From Hyphomicrobiales bacterium (lineage in GTDB: Bacteria > Pseudomonadota > Alphaproteobacteria > Rhizobiales > Beijerinckiaceae), in NCBI GenBank assembly GCA_003963405.1, contig RXIY01000021.1:1-64000 (forward strand): a stretch of 64,000 bases of DNA, in the 5' to 3' direction. How positions within the stretch are numbered: position 1 is the first letter of the stretch; each line of letters starts with the position of its first letter. Under the pieces are notes generated by a model. That model searched no databases. It was not told the DNA's origin and worked only from the letters and a program-made list of their open reading frames with translations. The translations under genes were made by a program, and so were the position numbers. Positions 53,034-59,538 of the stretch are shown here, piece after piece.

Positions 53034-53199
53034 GCGGTGTCGGGGGAGCCTGAAAGGTTGCAGGAGGGCGCGGGAGAGTTATCCCAGCGAAGGGGCGACT
53101 GCAAATCGCCCGGCGCCGCTTGCGCAAGAGGTGCGCGCGTCGCTTGCCTTCCGGCCCGCCCGCGTCAGCTATCCGTTCTCGAAGAGAAAGGATGAGCCG

Positions 53200-53316
53200 A
53201 TGCATCCGCAGGGAGAGATATTGCTCAAGGCCATGGCGGCGGCTTCAGTGACATTTTTCGTCGTAAAAATCGGCGCCGCGCTGCCCGCCCTGATGGCGGC
53301 TTTCGCCGGCAATTAG
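53200..53316 (+). CDS. Very small membrane protein, 38 aa
   Basis: MHPQGEILLK is followed by one hydrophobic helix of about 22 residues ending FAGN. An AAAGGA site precedes the ATG by seven bases. Short single-span proteins of this type are widespread; neither partner nor function can be named. The next open frame, at 53323, continues in the same reading frame just after its stop codon. Confidence 0.4.
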   Translation: MHPQGEILLKAMAAASVTFFVVKIGAALPALMAAFAGN

Positions 53317-53322
53317 CGCGAT

Positions 53323-53619
53323 TTGCGCGAGGGCGGCGCGCTTTCAGCCCTGGCGGCGGTCCTCGCCGCGTCGTCCACGATCCTGGCCGCAGGCCGGCTC
53401 GGCTACCCTGCGTGCAAAGACAAAGCGACCATTTCTCGGGCGCTGGAACTCTCGGACGAGGCTGATCCTCAGGCCGCGAGCGCGCTGATCCAGCGAGGCA
53501 TGAAGAGCGGAGACTGTCAGTTCATACCGGCCGACCAACGCGTCATAGCGCCGGGCCGCCCCGGAGCGGTTTCGCGCCGATCACGCCATCAGCATTCCCA
53601 GACCCAGTCGCCGGTGTAG
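53323..53619 (+). CDS. Small exported protein with two cysteines, 98 aa
   Basis: A hydrophobic N-terminal segment ('ALSALAAVLAASSTILAAGR') could be a signal peptide. The mature region has 'YPACKDKATISRALELSDEA' and 'ALIQRGMKSGDCQFIPADQR', resembling small periplasmic proteins of alphaproteobacteria with a conserved Cys pair. The only start candidate is TTG 53323 without a clear ribosome site, or it is read through from the preceding gene. Its 3' end overlaps the converging gene by 31 bases, which suggests the true end may be earlier in an ancestor. Confidence 0.4.
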   Translation: MREGGALSALAAVLAASSTILAAGRLGYPACKDKATISRALELSDEADPQAASALIQRGMKSGDCQFIPADQRVIAPGRPGAVSRRSRHQHSQTQSPV

Positions 53620-53810
53620 CTGTTGAAATACCAGCATACGCCGGGGTTCGCCGGATGGCCCGGCCGGCTCCAGTCCCTGTGCTGATAACGCCAGTGGGCG
53701 CCATAGGCCTGGATGTCCCCGTCATACGGAAAACGCCCCGAGGTCTGGGCCTGCGCGGATGCGGCCGCCATCAGAAGCGCCACGATCATCGTCGCCTTGA
53801 TCTTCGACAT
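53589..53810 (-). CDS. Small secreted protein, 73 aa
   Basis: MSKIKATMIVALLMAAASAQA is a clear signal peptide, cut after AQA near residue 21. The mature 52 residues are aromatic-rich: YGAHWRYQHRDWSR, then 'NPGVCWYFNSYTGDWVWEC' with two cysteines. A strong GGGAGG site precedes the ATG at 53808-53810. Function unknown. It is the last chromosomal gene before the tRNA-Trp fragment, so it would sit directly downstream of tRNA-Trp in an empty-site ancestor. Confidence 0.65.
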   Translation of the reverse strand: MSKIKATMIVALLMAAASAQAQTSGRFPYDGDIQAYGAHWRYQHRDWSRPGHPANPGVCWYFNSYTGDWVWEC

Positions 53811-53891
53811 GTTTCGCCTCCCTGGAGGTTGTTCATATCGGGCGAGCGAGGACAGCTTCCAGACGGGCCGGAAAAAGAAGCGTGGGAGCAA

Positions 53892-53935
53892 AGGCGGGAG
53901 TCGAGGGGCCTAACTCCCACCCCCGGTTTTGGAGA
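53892..53935 (-). repeat. Degenerate 3' half of tRNA-Trp (distal attachment-site copy)
   Basis: The stretch aligns with the real tRNA-Trp gene at 59463-59538 from the tRNA 3' end through the anticodon loop. Seventeen bases are identical (53919-53935 against 59492-59508), and the T-arm side shows several substitutions and a 2-base deletion. Similarity ends abruptly just past the anticodon loop. It is in the same orientation as the tRNA gene, so the two form direct repeats, as expected when an element integrates with crossover in the anticodon region. Confidence 0.8.
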
Positions 53936-53990
53936 TCTGTTGCGCGTCACGGAAAACGCCGGCGAGAGCCGACAGGCCGAGCGTGAGTTT

Positions 53991-54458
53991 TCAGGCGGGT
54001 TTCGCTGCACGCACCATTTTGATTTCGCGGTTGATTTCGTTCATGGACCAAAAGAACGCATATTTTGCATCCCTGTCGGGGAAATAGACAATCGCCTTGT
54101 CGCCTCGAAAGGTTGTGATCGCGCATTTTTGAATGCTGGAACTGTCATAAGAATAAATCACATAAATATCCGCGAGATCGAGAGTCCTGCGCAAAGGAAC
54201 GGGAAGCGGGAAGGATTTGAATAGCCGATAGGGAAAGGTAACGCTTCGAGCTGCAAGGGCTACTCCTCGCACCTCACTGAGAACGCACAAGACGAAGTAA
54301 GAAGAAAGCACGAGAACAAGGGTCCTGGCTTCGTGCGAGCGCATGAAAAGCGTCGCAACGATCAGGGCCAGAGCGACACTGGCCGACAGCATGACCCAGG
54401 GCCAAATGCAGCTTCGCCGGTAGAAAGTCGCGGTATCCGAGCGGTTAACGGTTGACAT
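53991..54458 (-). CDS. Membrane protein of unknown function, 155 aa
   Basis: Two hydrophobic spans near residues 16-40 and 45-66 are followed by a soluble domain with strands such as 'LADIYVIYSYDSSSIQKCAI' and 'FRGDKAIVYFPDRDAKYAFF'. The layout resembles small membrane proteins with a PH-like or YcxB-like cytosolic domain, though I cannot name the family. I chose ATG 54456-54458; a TTG nine codons upstream is the only other start. It is inside the element, close to its left end, pointing outwards. Confidence 0.55.
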   Translation of the reverse strand: MSTVNRSDTATFYRRSCIWPWVMLSASVALALIVATLFMRSHEARTLVLVLSSYFVLCVLSEVRGVALAARSVTFPYRLFKSFPLPVPLRRTLDLADIYVIYSYDSSSIQKCAITTFRGDKAIVYFPDRDAKYAFFWSMNEINREIKMVRAAKPA

Positions 54459-54673
54459 TGGGCGGTTCCCGTTGGGGCCATGCAAAGCCTGTTCAAGCGA
54501 GGCCCGTATGTCTTGAAAATGCTCGCAATCTTCGCTGTGAAGGCAAGGCCTGGCCGTTTCGAAGACGTTGCGATACGTTAGATTATGTTACTGCCCTAGA
54601 CGTACTGAAAGGTCAAGGCGCTGAATGAGAGAGTTGGCTGCGGCGCTGTGTCTCGTCGGCCGTCATCCACGCT

Positions 54674-54907
54674 ATGGAACACGCTACAATCCGAGGCTCA
54701 CACGACCTGATCGAAAAGCCAAGCTCAGAGAAGGGACGGGCGCGGGACCGCGTTCTCAACGATCCGGAGCTTCGCCGTGTTTGGCTGGCCAGCGAAAGCT
54801 TGGGATTTCCTTTTGGTCCGATGCTCAAGCTTCTGATTTTGACGGGTGCGCGCCGGGATGAAGTGCCACCCACGTTTCAAAACATGATTTTGAGGCTCTC
54901 GACATGA
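54674..54907 (+). pseudogene. Truncated tyrosine-type integrase
   Basis: Residues about 20-64, 'GRARDRVLNDPELRRVWLAS' then 'ESLGFPFGPMLKLLILTGAR' and RDEV, match the start of the catalytic domain of phage/island integrases, including the first catalytic Arg in LTGARRDEV. The N-terminal DNA-binding domains are missing, and after DEV the sequence leaves the family and stops at residue 77, so the rest of the catalytic core (H-x-x-R and Tyr) is absent. It lies near the distal end of the element, opposite the tRNA, which is unusual because island integrases normally adjoin the tRNA. Confidence 0.75.
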
Positions 54908-54920
54908 AACCCTCGATCAA

Positions 54921-55358
54921 ATGCAGCCAGCCGACCGTATTGCGTCGGCAAAATCTACAATGGAAAAAGTGGTCGACCATTTCCTTTATTCTCTGGAACT
55001 CCACGAGAACAACGCGATTATTGTCTATTCGCCCACACTCACCGATCAAATCCCCGCCTCCCACGCTGCAAGCGCGTTCGCTGTTTTTCAACGTGGATTG
55101 CATCAGCTAGAAATCATCCGGCTCTGTGCGTTGTGGGATAAGGCTGAACTCGACAATGAGTGTATCCCGACCGTCATTAGGCTGATCAACGATCCGGCTG
55201 TAATCGACGCGCTGGTTGAGGAAACGCGTGCACACCACGCAAACATCCAACCAGCACTGTTAAATCCACTCCCTGACGCCGCTACCGCGCCAAGGGCCTT
55301 GCGGCGGATGCGACCGGGATCGGGACGGGCCGCGTCATGCGGGGCGAATGGCATATAG
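54921..55358 (+). CDS. HEPN/AbiU2-like protein, C-terminus possibly disrupted
   Basis: 145 residues. Residues 1-110 are helical: 'SAKSTMEKVVDHFLYSLELH', 'SAFAVFQRGLHQLEIIRLCA' and LWDKAELDNECIPTVIRLIND, which resembles the AbiU2 branch of HEPN domains. AbiU2 occurs in abortive-infection or toxin-type systems, although many relatives have no tested role and I do not see an R-x4-6-H ribonuclease motif. The last 25 residues are Ala/Arg-rich without resemblance, so the 3' end may be a frameshifted remnant. It starts only 13 bases after the integrase remnant, as if deletion joined them. Confidence 0.5.
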   Translation: MQPADRIASAKSTMEKVVDHFLYSLELHENNAIIVYSPTLTDQIPASHAASAFAVFQRGLHQLEIIRLCALWDKAELDNECIPTVIRLINDPAVIDALVEETRAHHANIQPALLNPLPDAATAPRALRRMRPGSGRAASCGANGI

Positions 55359-55465
55359 CGATACGAGCAAGCGTTACCCGTTCGCACAGTCAAGCAAGAC
55401 TGGAAAATGCGTAGTGAAAACTACTTACCTGGAAAGGAGAATCTCGCAGGCGGGCGGAGTGGAAA

Positions 55466-55918
55466 ATGACTACAATGGATGCGCTTCGCCTAGAAGAACA
55501 GGCGCAGGATGAGCGGATGATCCAGAGCCAGCTAGGGAAAGCCATTCATCACTCGCTCAAAACGATCATCCAAGAACCGCTCCCTAACCGGATGGCGCTG
55601 CTGCTGCTGCGACTGGCGTTAGCTGAGTCGGCATACCCGGCGGATGGCGAAGAATGGAGGGGCCGTCTCTCAACGTTAATGGACGCACCCGAGACAGAAC
55701 TTGACAAGGCCACTCGGCATGTCGCCAAGGCGAGGCTAATAGTTAGTCGTCAGCGGGAGCGCATCGCCGAGCTTCAAGCAGAGCATCGCCCGACCGAAGA
55801 TGCTCTGCGCCTGATGGATACTTTCAGCAAAACGCTTGCGAACCTCGAATACCATCTACGCCTCTTGCGTGAAGAGGCCGAAGGCAAAGGCAAAATTCCC
55901 GAATGGATGCGCGCTTAG
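55466..55918 (+). CDS. NepR-like domain protein with coiled-coil C-terminal region
   Basis: 150 residues. Residues 19-51, 'SQLGKAIHHSLKTIIQEPLP' followed by NRMALLLLRL, fit the NepR pattern (two short helices around EP-[IVL]-P-[DN]-R). NepR is the anti-sigma factor of the alphaproteobacterial general stress sigma factor EcfG, released when phospho-PhyR binds NepR. The C-terminal half, 'HVAKARLIVSRQRERIAELQ' and 'LMDTFSKTLANLEYHLRLLR', is predicted coiled coil and not part of classical NepR (about 60 residues). It converges with an HWE kinase gene, which suggests one signalling unit. The NepR call rests on a short motif and is tentative. Confidence 0.55.
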   Translation: MTTMDALRLEEQAQDERMIQSQLGKAIHHSLKTIIQEPLPNRMALLLLRLALAESAYPADGEEWRGRLSTLMDAPETELDKATRHVAKARLIVSRQRERIAELQAEHRPTEDALRLMDTFSKTLANLEYHLRLLREEAEGKGKIPEWMRA

Positions 55919-55984
55919 AGGCCCGCTTTCCACTCGCCTAGGAATCGAACGAGCGCGAAGAATTACATCGCTTACGCCTGCTGC

Positions 55985-56104
55985 ATGCACACAACCACGC
56001 GGTGCGGTGCCGCTGAACTGCTGCGCCCTTTCGAGGAAATCCAAGAACTGCATGTCACCGACCGGGACTGGCTTCAGAAGGAGTTGAATGAGCTTAAAGA
56101 GTAG
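55985..56104 (+). CDS. Possible 39-aa open reading frame
   Basis: It begins MHTTTRCGAAELLRPF and continues to WLQKELNELKE, in the same reading frame as the NepR-like gene but after its stop codon. The last 25 residues are acidic and helical. It could be a small gene or the former C-terminal end of a longer protein cut by the TAG at 55916-55918. There is no clear ribosome binding site. Confidence 0.2.
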   Translation: MHTTTRCGAAELLRPFEEIQELHVTDRDWLQKELNELKE

Positions 56105-56126
56105 CCCCGCCAGTGGCCCATGAAAC

Positions 56127-57116
56127 TCACTGCCCCATCGGAATCAGAATTTCCACCTGTAAGCCTTCTGGTTCGAACCGCAGATTCGCTTCCCCTCCGC
56201 AGTTTTTCGCGCTGCTTTCAATGAGGGTAATGCCAAACCCGCGGTGATTGGGCGGCGACAAAACGGGGCCTCTCTCTTCCCGCCAATCAATCTGAAGGTT
56301 CTGGGGCTTGTCTTCGCCTATGGCGCGCCATCCCAAATGCACAAGTCCTTCTGGGCGCGACAACGCACCATACTTGATCGCGTTGGTCGTCAATTCGTGG
56401 AGGATCATGCGAATAGGTCGAACGTGTGCAGAGTCAAGCGGAATCGAGGGGCTGGGTTCCACTACGATCTGACGAGTGTTGGCGGCATGTAGTGCATCGT
56501 CCACAACAGCAGATAGGCTAACTTGGGCCTCGGCGGACTGCGCAAAAAGGTCTTTCGCGCTGATGAACGCCTCCAATCGACCTAGAAATGCGTCGCGGTA
56601 TTCTTTCGCCGATTTCCCTTCAACTCCCGTCTGGATGGCGAGCGCGTGCACGACGGTCAGCACGTTTTTTATTCGATGTTTGGCCTCGGCAAGTAGAAGG
56701 TCGTTATCGACGGCGCGCTTACGCGCACTCGTTACGTCGGCGAAAGCAATGACCAAGTTTGGGCTGTTATTATCTTCGCGGACCATGCGACGCGCGCTTA
56801 CCAGCATCACCCGACGCCCGATTGAAGGAAAGTCATAATTGACTTCAAATCCGACAACGGCTTGAGCTTTGGGTATCACTTCCTCGATCAACCTTCGTAA
56901 CTCAGGGATGTCCCACTGTCCGCTCCCGAGAGCAAACAGCGACACGCCCACCGTGCTGTCTGGGTCTACGTTGAACGTTTGATAGAAAGCTGGATTGGCT
57001 CTGATCACACAAAGGTTTTCGTCAAGAAGGAGCACGGGATCGGCTAAAGAATCCACGATCCCTTGGACTTCGATATGGGCGCTGCTTAGCGCCTGATAAA
57101 GACTTAAAAGCGCCAC
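56127..57116 (-). CDS. PAS domain HWE-family sensor histidine kinase
   Basis: 329 residues, no membrane span, so a cytoplasmic sensor. A PAS domain occupies about 20-130 ('IVDSLADPVLLLDENLCVIR'). The phosphoacceptor is His 147 in 'LLAEAKHRIKNVLTVVHALA', the HWE/HisKA_2 type H-box. The ATP-binding domain has the N-box 'HELTTNAIKYGALS' (240-253), the family's W-x-E in 'QIDWREERGP' (Trp 278, Glu 280) and the G-box RGFGITLI. HWE kinases are the usual inputs to PhyR in general stress response. It starts at GTG 57114-57116 and diverges from the response regulator gene at 57283. Confidence 0.88.
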   Translation of the reverse strand: MALLSLYQALSSAHIEVQGIVDSLADPVLLLDENLCVIRANPAFYQTFNVDPDSTVGVSLFALGSGQWDIPELRRLIEEVIPKAQAVVGFEVNYDFPSIGRRVMLVSARRMVREDNNSPNLVIAFADVTSARKRAVDNDLLLAEAKHRIKNVLTVVHALAIQTGVEGKSAKEYRDAFLGRLEAFISAKDLFAQSAEAQVSLSAVVDDALHAANTRQIVVEPSPSIPLDSAHVRPIRMILHELTTNAIKYGALSRPEGLVHLGWRAIGEDKPQNLQIDWREERGPVLSPPNHRGFGITLIESSAKNCGGEANLRFEPEGLQVEILIPMGQ

Positions 57117-57220
57117 GGTAGAGGCCCCGTTTTAACGGATCGAAAGATACCACGCTCTGTCTTCTTGCTCCACTTGCGAGCCTAGTAGAGACCGGTTGAA
57201 GCCGCCGTTTTTCGACTTCT

Positions 57221-57248
57221 GGAACCACGCAGATGACTGACGGGTTCC
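57221..57248. promoter_or_regulatory. Symmetric GGAACC-N16-GGTTCC element, possible bidirectional EcfG-type promoter
   Basis: GGAACC at 57221-57226 and GGTTCC at 57243-57248 form an inverted repeat. On each strand it reads GGAAC, 17 bases, GGTT, close to the EcfG general-stress promoter (GGAAC, 16-17 bases, CGTT). It lies 35 bases before the response regulator start and about 105 bases before the kinase start, so one site could serve both divergent genes. The first base of each -10 half differs from consensus. Confidence 0.4.
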
Positions 57249-57282
57249 GGCTGGCGCTCTTCCTGACGCTGGGGCCATTCTC

Positions 57283-57654
57283 ATGGTATCGCTTGACTAT
57301 TCGGGCCTCGCAAACCTCCGCGTCGTCATTGCCGAGGATGAAGAGATAATCGGCCAGTATATTGGGCGCATCCTCAGTGAGGCTGGCGCGATAATTGTTG
57401 CCGTTGCGCGAACCGTCCCCGAAGCGTTGGAACTTATCGAGCGGACACGGCCCAACGCCGTGACGCTGGATGGGAACTTAGGCGGGACGCTTTCAAGCGC
57501 AGTAGCGAAACGTCTGGATGAACTTGGCATACGCTACCTTATAGTCTCAGGAGCGCACCTCGCTTCAGACGCCCGCCTTTCTGCCGCGCCGCGATTGGCC
57601 AAGCCATTCACGCCAGAGACCTTGAGAGCCGCAGTCGCCCAACATCTTTGCTGA
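57283..57654 (+). CDS. Single-domain response regulator
   Basis: 123 residues consisting only of a receiver domain. The acidic pocket is 'LRVVIAEDEEIIGQYI' (Glu 18, Asp 19), the phosphoacceptor Asp 63 in 'NAVTLDGNLGG', the switch Ser 89 in 'LIVSGAHLAS' and Lys 107 in RLAKPFT. There is no output domain, so it works by protein contact, as do the single-domain regulators that tune PhyR phosphorylation. The divergent HWE kinase gene and the shared upstream element suggest they form a cognate pair. Confidence 0.88.
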   Translation: MVSLDYSGLANLRVVIAEDEEIIGQYIGRILSEAGAIIVAVARTVPEALELIERTRPNAVTLDGNLGGTLSSAVAKRLDELGIRYLIVSGAHLASDARLSAAPRLAKPFTPETLRAAVAQHLC

Positions 57655-57979
57655 GCGGGCCGATCAGCAAAAGCCAAAGCTAGACTGTCTTGCGCATCTC
57701 CGCCGAAGGCGAGCGCCGGGGCATGAGCGACGGACTCGCTCGCCTATCTGCAAAAGCCAAATCTCAACCGTAAAGCGAGGATCGCCAAGGGGCCATAGCG
57801 GCGGGGTGGTTGTTCTGCGTCTTTTGATTTTTGAATCGCTGGGAAATCCGGCCAAGCGCCGGGGCATGAGCGACGATGGTTTTTCGGACCGATGGCCAAA
57901 ACGGAAGCGGCCCCCTATGACAAGCTTCCGCATCCAGCGCCGGGGAAACACCCCGACGCCTGATACATGCGTGGGAGTT
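57655..57979. other. Intergenic stretch with a 21-bp direct repeat
   Basis: About 325 bases between the response regulator and the molbindin gene. A 21-bp sequence containing GCGCCGGGGCATGAGCGA occurs at 57712-57732 and again, identically, at 57855-57875. A shorter match, CAAAAGCCAAA, flanks both sides of the first copy. I see no gene; it looks like a locally duplicated, decayed segment. Confidence 0.5.
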
Positions 57980-58189
57980 TTAATCGACAGCGATCATCAC
58001 TTCGGAAGATTTGATCACTGCGTAAGCCTTCTTTCCAACCTGAAGGCCAAGCTCCTCCACGGATTCATTGGTAATCGACGCTGTGATGGTGGCACCCTTC
58101 ACGTCGAGCAGAACGTGCGAAGTGGTCGCGCCTTTTTTAATTTCCTTGATTGTGCCTTCGAGCACGTTGCGGGCTGAAATTTTCTTCAT
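57980..58189 (-). CDS. Molbindin-type protein (single Mop/TOBE domain)
   Basis: 69 residues forming one Mop domain: 'KISARNVLEGTIKEIKKGAT', 'VLLDVKGATITASITNESVE' and KAYAVIKSSEVMIAVD. Such proteins assemble into hexamers that bind molybdate or tungstate in the cytoplasm, as storage or homeostasis proteins for molybdenum or nitrogenase enzymes. A GGAGG site precedes the ATG. No mod transport genes are adjacent, and its presence inside the decayed element is unexplained. Confidence 0.9.
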   Translation of the reverse strand: MKKISARNVLEGTIKEIKKGATTSHVLLDVKGATITASITNESVEELGLQVGKKAYAVIKSSEVMIAVD

Positions 58190-58838
58190 ATGCGCCTCCG
58201 TTGGAACCCCAAGCGGTTGTGACTTTGGAACGACCCTGAGCTAATCCCCCGAGGAAGAACAGAAAAGGGACAACCGCTGGCGGTTCTGGCGTGGTGGATG
58301 ATCCAGCGCCATGGCACACTTGTCCATGGACCCGGGCCCCTGCACCATCATCCGGGCGGGTGGTCGAGGCCCCCAACAAGCCCCCCGACGCGCCCATTGC
58401 GGAGGGGCCATGGGATATGCCTCGCGGGTTGCTCGCGGCGATCCATGGGGCTCGGGCGAGGGATACGGGGCAGTCCGAACGGGGTAAGTTGCTCGCGAAT
58501 CACGTTTTCCGTCATGCCGGGGAGCCCCGCGAGGATCGCAGATTCGAACAATTCGCGAGCCCCAATCCCTTGGGCTAAGTCTTGACAATCAGTCTTTGTA
58601 GGTGCCGGATTTCCGGCGCCTACTGCAAACCGTTGTTTTGCATAGAACTTCAAGGCGCTGGCCACGCTTCCCGCCTGAGATGTGCCCATGCGGGATTTCC
58701 CGCATCACGAGCCCTTGCCCAGCTTCCGCCAAAGGTGCAGGAAATTTTACACCTTCGAACCCCCCAGCCCTCGCCCCTCACCTTGCCGCCGAGAGCGGGG
58801 AGGCGGGGGATGATCCGGGCAGATTAGCTAGGCCCTTT
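58190..58838. other. Non-coding stretch with two similar hairpins
   Basis: About 650 bases with no supported gene; several overlapping open frames are compositional. Two stem-loops share an ATTT loop: GTAGGTGCCGG/CCGGCGCCTAC at 58598-58623 (one G-T pair) and ATGCGGG/CCCGCAT at 58688-58705. They could be copies of a small interspersed palindromic element. The region upstream of 58250 should contain the molbindin promoter. Confidence 0.4.
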
Positions 58839-59024
58839 TCAGGCTTCATCCGCGCCGTTGGCAGCGCCGTCCCTGTCACTCGCGCTGTCGAACTCGGCCA
58901 GAATTGTGCGCGCCTCATTAATGGCTTCCCGAGTGGTTTCGCAGCTAATGAGCGCGTCGAACAGCACGACAAGAGCGTCCGCGGTAAGTGGCGCACTGTG
59001 CGTAAAATTTGCTCTTTGCGACAC
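58839..59024 (-). CDS. Small protein of unknown function, 61 aa
   Basis: It starts at GTG 59022-59024 behind a good GGAAGGG site. The sequence, with 'ADALVVLFDALISCETTREA' and INEARTILAEFD, predicts two amphipathic helices and an acidic end. There is no signal peptide. I recognise no family. It lies inside the element, near the tRNA end. Confidence 0.4.
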   Translation of the reverse strand: MSQRANFTHSAPLTADALVVLFDALISCETTREAINEARTILAEFDSASDRDGAANGADEA

Positions 59025-59462
59025 GGCCTGACCCTTCCGATAGATAGGAAAAGACGGCCCGCCCGGAGGCGTTCTAGGGGGCCGTCAACTCCCATTTGAA
59101 AAAAGGCCCTTTCAAACAAGAGGACGGTAGCCGTGCCCGCCATGCTGGCAAAGCGTGGCCGAGCGGCATGAACAATGTCGGGCGAAAACGTCAGGCGGTA
59201 GTTGCAAAAGAGCCACAGGCGCACGCGGGCGGCGATCGGAAAACAGCAGAATGATTCGGGGGCGGGGAATCGCGGCTGCTTGGCTGCTGCCTGAGCTTTG
59301 CATTTGCTCCGGTAGCCCAGCCCTCTCTGCTTCAACTTACCGCCGCGCACAGCGAGGCGGGGGGGCGGTCAAATTCGCGCCCAAGAGCCTCAACCGCATA
59401 CCTTGGCGCTTACCTCGGCCGGGGAGCGATTCTTGGGCTGTTGTGTAACTTCTTGATTTCAA
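59025..59462. other. Non-coding stretch beside the tRNA
   Basis: About 440 bases between the small open frame and the 3' end of tRNA-Trp. I found no integrase here, although this is where a tRNA-targeting integrase gene would usually lie. Open frames are short and lack ribosome sites. Confidence 0.4.
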
Positions 59463-59538
59463 TGGCAGGAGTGGAGGGGCTCGAACCCCCAACCCCCGGT
59501 TTTGGAGACCGGTGCTCTACCAGTTGAGCTACACTCCT
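59463..59538 (-). tRNA. tRNA-Trp (anticodon CCA)
   Basis: 76 bases on the minus strand, starting AGGAGTGTAGCTCAACTGGT. The anticodon arm reads CCGGTCTCCAAAACCGG-like, with CCA at the anticodon. The T-arm is GGGTTCGAGCCCC-like, and the acceptor strands AGGAGTG/CACTCCT pair fully, with an encoded CCA end. It is the integration target of the element to its left: its 3' half is repeated, in degenerate form, at 53892-53935. Confidence 0.97.

Follow-up and report, generated by a model that had tools for sequence, protein, structure and literature searches.

The gene at 55466..55918 (+) of the analysed window, the whole stretch of 64,000 nucleotides, encodes a 150-aa protein, P0001, in which a diverged NepR paralogue (residues ~14-55) is fused to a C-terminal domain (~78-140) predicted to be helical. 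Judged from sequence comparison, the family relationship of the N-terminal part is solid. NepR (PF18557) is the anti-sigma factor of the alphaproteobacterial general stress response, the canonical NepR binding EcfG, and NepR paralogues are known to tune this response. The fusion gene lies in an islet beside a tRNA gene, along with genes for a PAS-HWE histidine kinase, P0002 (56127..57116, -; 329 aa, GTG start), and a single-domain receiver, P0003 (57283..57654, +; 123 aa). We tentatively regard this islet as carrying both an accessory input to and a brake on the chromosomal general stress response of the host, with the fusion as a NepR2-type antagonist of PhyR, and hold this best explanation at slightly less than even confidence.

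The three open reading frames were found where the preliminary description had placed them, and its calls of an HWE kinase and a lone receiver were borne out by Pfam matches above the cut-offs. P0002 matched HWE_HK with an E-value of 1.6e-14 (54.8 bits against a cut-off of 22.8) and also PAS above its cut-off, and an H-box, an N-box and a WxE-type motif were seen by eye. P0003 matched Response_reg above the cut-off (E 7.3e-9) and had the phospho-acceptor Asp and the Lys by eye, and its nearest NCBIfam models, PRK13435 and PhyR-family receivers, both scored below cut-off. A clear FATGUY receiver motif was not found in P0003; YLIVSGAH stands at its place, where the C73-type receiver, in the copy of a same-species genome, reads IFATGYD. 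P0002 and P0003 are the same protein classes, side by side, as Pak-SdrG of S. melonis and MrrA of C. crescentus, although P0003, unlike the SdrG and MrrA receivers, lacks a clear FATGUY motif and the gene order is divergent. MrrA and SdrG accept phosphate from HWE kinases (PMC5964349, in excerpt). At E <= 1e-40, P0002 matched 4 of the 39 Methylocystis genomes, namely its own, a piece in G062, a piece in G021 covering residues 3-135, and G036 at 36%. Plasmid matches at 1e-60 came from 29 records, the nearest full-length ones among the 12 listed of these 29 standing at 46-48%, and in one plasmid record the kinase plus receiver adjoin three tyrosine recombinases. A defence role was considered and rejected, as PADLOC gave no match for the fusion, the kinase and two other islet ORFs, and only one weak match for the receiver (E 0.0042).

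The NepR-like domain of P0001 (55505..55630, +) carries the motif LG...EPLP...LLLLRLALAE and was delimited through a family alignment, with columns 14-53 aligned by hhalign. Pfam NepR did not match P0001 itself even at E <= 10, short of the curated cut-off, and NCBIfam gave no match either. The match to DUF7856, at E 0.00075 and 19.7 bits where 30.2 are required, was set aside with four weaker ones as chance matches of helical sequence. The search of the Methylocystis genomes with P0001 instead retrieved short NepR-like proteins (best E 1.8e-9, an E-value for one genome), and 11 of the 17 aligned family members matched Pfam NepR at E <= 1, the best at 3.6e-8. The Pfam model matched residues 17-47 of a full-length fusion in G061, with E 0.0013 and a sub-threshold 18.7 bits (cut-off 25.7), and the fusion homologue in G009 gave no Pfam NepR match at E <= 1. 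In hhalign, the three fusions aligned with six Pfam-positive NepRs of the P0001 genome at 96.3% (E 1.7e-9). The NepR profile check proposed earlier was therefore negative for P0001 itself and positive through its relatives and the profile-profile comparison. The missing Pfam match for the protein goes half-way towards the lack of a profile match that had been named as refuting the anti-sigma interpretation, but it is outweighed by these two results, and the motif stands above chance by the genus relatives, the Pfam-matching family members, the G061 homologue and hhalign.

The comparison with known structures agreed with this assignment at the level of the family. A family profile run against the PDB sequences retrieved only four at E <= 1, all of them NepR chains (2lfw, 1.8e-4; 3t0y, 4.3e-4; 5uxx, 0.025; 4qic, 0.037). 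P0001 alone gave no NepR match among the PDB sequences, and a short NepR-like protein from the same genome matched NepR weakly there (0.11, 0.43), with a non-NepR chain at 0.4. The EPLP turn and the helix-2 leucines are retained in the family alignment. Compared with NepR of Pfam, P0001 shares the LG...EPxP...LL region, whereas it is missed by the model, has a longer and more hydrophobic helix 2 (RMALLLLRLALAE), carries the extra C-terminal domain and has neither ecfG nor phyR adjacent. NepR of S. melonis needs L32 and Y36 for activity (PMC6599016, in excerpt); by eye through the 2lfw_B alignment, P0001 has Ile27 at the place of Leu32 and Leu31 at that of Tyr36, the latter place being occupied by Leu in G009 and Phe in G061. 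The AlphaFold model of P0001 has a mean pLDDT of 58.5, mostly below 50 across the NepR part. In this low-confidence model the helices span residues 3-34, 39-54, 76-104 and 111-138, the first two flanking EPLP, which is consistent with, but no proof of, a NepR helix pair plus a hairpin. The fusion to a helical region, noted in the preliminary description, agrees with the helical prediction for the C-terminal part in the same low-confidence model.

The C-terminal domain (55697..55885, +; profile match 55694-55885) was placed by hhalign, as a diverged member, in a small-protein family without a name. Residues ~78-145 of P0001 matched an 87-aa stand-alone protein in G009, and the domain matched an alignment of 14 small proteins, taken from Methylocystis, other Hyphomicrobiales and plasmids of the Rhizobium type, at 97.0% over 64 columns (E 9.9e-11), the NepR half of P0001 reaching only 0.05% as a negative control. 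Such proteins, for example the 'hypothetical protein' WP_020919132.1 of R. etli CFN 42, stand alone at roughly 70-110 aa, whereas the domain of P0001 is fused. Pfam and NCBIfam held no fitting model for the family, giving scattered weak matches only. Directly downstream of the fusion, at 56009..56104 (+), lies a remnant of the C-terminal half of a second, stand-alone gene of the same family (match 56009-56101, E 2.4e-6).

Using tblastn, the small family was detected in 48 plasmid records, and the full fusion and a short NepR-like protein gave no match against the plasmids. The gene neighbourhoods were sampled at 12 of the 40 listed plasmid matches, with at most 20 kb of flank at either end, and a homologue of an HWE kinase, a receiver, PhyR or EcfG lay within 5 kb in nine of these 12 loci. 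Seven plasmid matches were also viewed with 6-kb flanks; H23/L120, the only one of them outside the 12, had no such neighbour, which brings the count to 9 of 13. Genes of these signalling classes numbered 14 in 117.6 kb near the small-family genes against 12 in 347.2 kb far from them (binomial 0.0017, a value that ignores kinship among the loci, of which L124/L125 and L129/L132 look related). An EcfG-like promoter was found upstream of only 1 of 12 small-family genes, and the family therefore does not itself look EcfG-driven. As for its spread, of 289 alphaproteobacteria a three-row C-terminal profile matched the own genome alone, while five-row and 14-row profiles matched 3 of 81 and 5 of 121 genomes, respectively, the own genome included. 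By these searches, which scored limited numbers of candidates, the family appears thin outside Rhizobium-type plasmids.

The insert beside tRNA-Trp looks like foreign DNA. The tRNA-Trp gene (59463..59538, -) is the integration target and right boundary, and the left boundary is an att-like repeat at 53889..53935 (+), a 49-column, 86% copy of the tRNA 3' end. Upstream of the fusion are an integrase remnant (54674..54907, +; phrog_1 integrase at E 0.0013, no Pfam match) and a HEPN/AbiU2-like ORF (54921..55358, +; PF18734 at E 6.1e-6, 26.3 bits against a cut-off of 26.8). The GC content of the islet is 0.567, compared with 0.659 outside. When the proB regions of seven relatives were compared, G021 showed proB and tRNA-Trp with little in between, corresponding to an empty site; in G002, G010, G009 and G022 about 5 to 12.6 kb separated the two, without a blastn match to the interval of the window, and in L140 and L141 the far flank of the region lay beyond the 14 kb compared. 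The location within an island, as first described, is thus confirmed by the empty site, the duplicated tRNA 3' end, the integrase remnant and the GC contrast.

Conservation of the three genes differed considerably. The fusion occurs in 4 of the 39 Methylocystis genomes, representing three lineages, and is full-length in all four; the homologue in G009 stands at 64%, and that in G061 is the third full-length fusion. The dN/dS ratio was about 0.3-0.4 in three pairs (0.25/0.81, 0.34/1.06 and 0.36/0.89), and the fusion is under purifying selection across the three lineages. The same-species genome G062 has the islet at the same place. Between window positions 55,000 and 58,200, it lacks three stretches of 201, 674 and 143 bp, has a single base inserted and differs by nine base changes. 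The largest of these deletions (56796-57469) removes the first 321 of 990 bases of the kinase gene, 187 of 372 bases of the receiver gene and the promoter motif between them, and the HEPN-like ORF is also cut, whereas the fusion is intact, differing at a single one of 450 bases. In two other species the surroundings of the fusion, about 7 kb at L038 and 5 kb at L080, showed neither kinase nor receiver. Fusion, kinase and receiver are not a conserved unit, so that the term module, used for them in the preliminary description, is not supported as it stands.

The core pathway is present elsewhere in the own Methylocystis genome. C48 carries a nepR-ecfG/phyR locus and C43 a second cluster with PhyR, NepR, EcfG and HWE, so that at least two PhyR and at least two EcfG-type genes exist outside the islet. 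The earlier statement that the genes occur without phyR or ecfG holds at the locus but not genome-wide, and the suggested link to the chromosomal PhyR-NepR-EcfG pathway of the host is supported as likely by these two loci. Seven Pfam NepR matches over the cut-off were detected in this genome, none inside the window. The family profile gave ten matches, one overlapping the fusion and one being a 45-aa frame with two stops, compared with 11 in the same-species genome; at least one match was found in 27 of the 39 genus genomes, and up to 11 NepR-like matches occur per genome in the genus. Pooling the Pfam, protein-search and family-profile matches gave 12 distinct NepR-family places in the own genome, including the fusion, which is therefore not alone in it. 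HWE domains occur at six places in this genome, three of them (window included) within 2.5 kb of a NepR-family match, and at C73 two NepR-like genes stand together with a receiver and pieces of HWE kinase.

The search for GGAAC-N16..18-[CG]GTT in the window detected exactly two matches, on the two strands of one 28-bp near-palindrome (57221..57248), forming overlapping divergent EcfG-like promoter motifs of GGAAC-N17-GGTT on both strands (GGAACC-N16-GGTTCC). Both sit in the 166-bp gap between the divergent genes for P0002 and P0003. Two matches are as expected for 64 kb (mean 2.19; 64 of 100 shuffles), while the chance of a motif falling in this gap is ~0.6%, the palindrome making the second match nearly automatic. 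Across the NepR family, GGAAC-N15..18-[CG]GTT preceded 13 of 38 genes, several of them orthologues, by no more than 300 nt, against 0.73 expected, with distances taken from the matched stretch; 12 of these 13 motifs lay at 51-114 nt, and seven had CGTT and six GGTT. The motif was present at 12 of 26 family genes outside the own genome and at 1 of 12 inside it, the nepR of C48 having its motif at 344 nt, beyond the limit. Neither the P0001 gene nor its homologues in G009 and G061 had an EcfG-like promoter within 300 nt; the fusion gene and the G061 homologue share an upstream block by eye. The -10 box of the window motifs, GGTT, departs from the consensus CGTT printed in PMC7083833, which in the excerpt used also describes an EcfG-controlled HWE kinase in Sphingopyxis.

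In the best explanation, the NepR-type helix pair of the fusion most likely binds the sigma-like domain of host PhyR, which would leave the true NepR free to hold EcfG. The C-terminal hairpin probably serves the fusion for dimerisation or for docking to a kinase or receiver, and the adjoining HWE kinase and receiver, possibly EcfG-expressed, may feed phosphate to PhyR or drain it. The sequences themselves establish the NepR homology, the domain fusion, kinase and receiver genes of full length, the promoter-like motifs, the islet and purifying selection on the fusion, whereas PhyR binding, the direction of the effect, the role of the hairpin, the use of the promoter and the pairing of kinase and receiver are all inferred. 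The explanation draws support from the NepR kinship, the host PhyR/EcfG loci, the promoters of the family, the HWE sites near NepR-family matches, the motif pair in the kinase-receiver gap, the match of the C-terminal domain, the small-family neighbourhoods, dN/dS and the precedents in M. extorquens, S. melonis and Sphingopyxis. Like the PhyR-binding paralogues NepR2 of S. melonis Fr1 and MexAM1_META2p0735 of M. extorquens, P0001 is a diverged NepR paralogue whose genome also holds a PhyR-NepR-EcfG core, and the EcfG-like promoters on related genes of other Methylocystis species add to the likeness. It differs from both in the fused helical domain, the location in a tRNA islet, the promoter without motif and the Leu at the key aromatic residue. 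The explanation is weakened by this missing promoter and the low motif count in the own genome, by the replacements at Leu32 and Tyr36, by the GGTT box and the chance-level number of window motifs, by the failure of P0001 alone to find NepR in the PDB together with the low-confidence model, by a kinase and receiver that do not travel with the fusion and are broken in G062, and by near/far loci that are not all independent.

The preliminary description had proposed an orphan anti-sigma factor, in which the NepR-type domain would bind EcfG or an EcfG paralogue and the hairpin would add stability or dimerisation. This alternative, which we consider rather unlikely, agrees with the membership in the same two-helix family by hhalign, with the binding of EcfG by canonical NepR and with the retained EPLP turn and helix-2 leucines. 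Sigma binding is also stated for the two RsiA proteins of S. meliloti (PMC4814048). For M. extorquens, where three NepR paralogues were tested, the same paper found binding to PhyR for two and binding to EcfG for none, although the authors allow for missed interactions, and over-expression of one paralogue lowers stress resistance. NepR2 of S. melonis, itself EcfG-controlled, also binds PhyR, its EcfG-binding test being inconclusive (PMC6599016, in excerpt). At L038, L066 and L080 the genes beside the fusion included no recognisable EcfG homologue. Since the characterised paralogues, in the cited passages of both papers, favour PhyR, a PhyR antagonist appears more likely by analogy than an anti-sigma factor.

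The hairpin might instead be the active part, an adaptor for kinase or receiver, with the NepR-type helices only tethering this scaffold to PhyR. The small-family genes near HWE, receiver and EcfG-like genes and the family remnant adjoining the fusion fit such a role, but the association is through neighbourhood only, such neighbours are missing at 4 of 13 small-family loci and two fusion homologues showed neither kinase nor receiver nearby, so that we rate it as quite improbable. A similarly low probability is given to a decaying islet of passenger genes of the tRNA-Trp element, with no present function in stress control: the remnants of the integrase and of the second small-family gene, and the cut HEPN-like ORF, kinase and receiver, speak for decay, but the fusion has its full length in all four genus genomes that carry it, is under purifying selection between three lineages and differs by a single base between the two same-species genomes.

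Among the open-access papers listed, no fusion of NepR to another natural domain was found, the sole 'NepR fusion' being a two-hybrid construct. A methanotroph genus now shows NepR fused to another domain, with four genomes from three lineages carrying it, and inputs to the stress response are gained and lost there through a tRNA islet. It is conceivable, as a long shot, that the unnamed small helical family is a missing part of HWE-kinase and general-stress signalling whose hairpin docks to HWE kinases or receivers, in which case the fusion would physically couple a sensor to PhyR and provide a mobile element with a control of its own over the host stress response. The occurrence of the family near HWE kinases, receivers and EcfG-like genes provides the first concrete functional guess for such 'hypothetical proteins'.

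The interval between proB and tRNA-Trp, which occupies 53034-59462 of the window, was found to differ in content among Methylocystis genomes. It was nearly empty in the relative G021, and in four of the seven fetched relatives it was filled with different DNA. Within the islet, an HEPN/AbiU2-like ORF was located at 54921-55358, with a Pfam score slightly under the cut-off, and this ORF was shortened by 201 bp in the same-species genome G062. Immediately 3' of the fusion gene, the remnant of a second gene of the small family related to the C-terminal domain of the fusion was detected at 56009-56104.

A relative of the window kinase (48%), together with a receiver, was observed on a conjugative plasmid of S. 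fredii GR64 (locus L131, 2633-7430), where they adjoined three tyrosine recombinases. A second replicon of G021 (contig C2; locus L143, 6810-15262) carried a truncated N-terminal kinase piece, 86% like the window kinase and flanked by further HWE kinases and a receiver. Elsewhere in the own genome, two NepR-like genes, a receiver and pieces of HWE kinase were clustered on contig C73 (locus L047, 2084-5520).

A tRNA gene was present in 9 of the 32 scanned loci, a count inflated by orthologous loci; on the basis of this proportion, NepR-like genes may have a preference for tRNA-linked islets.
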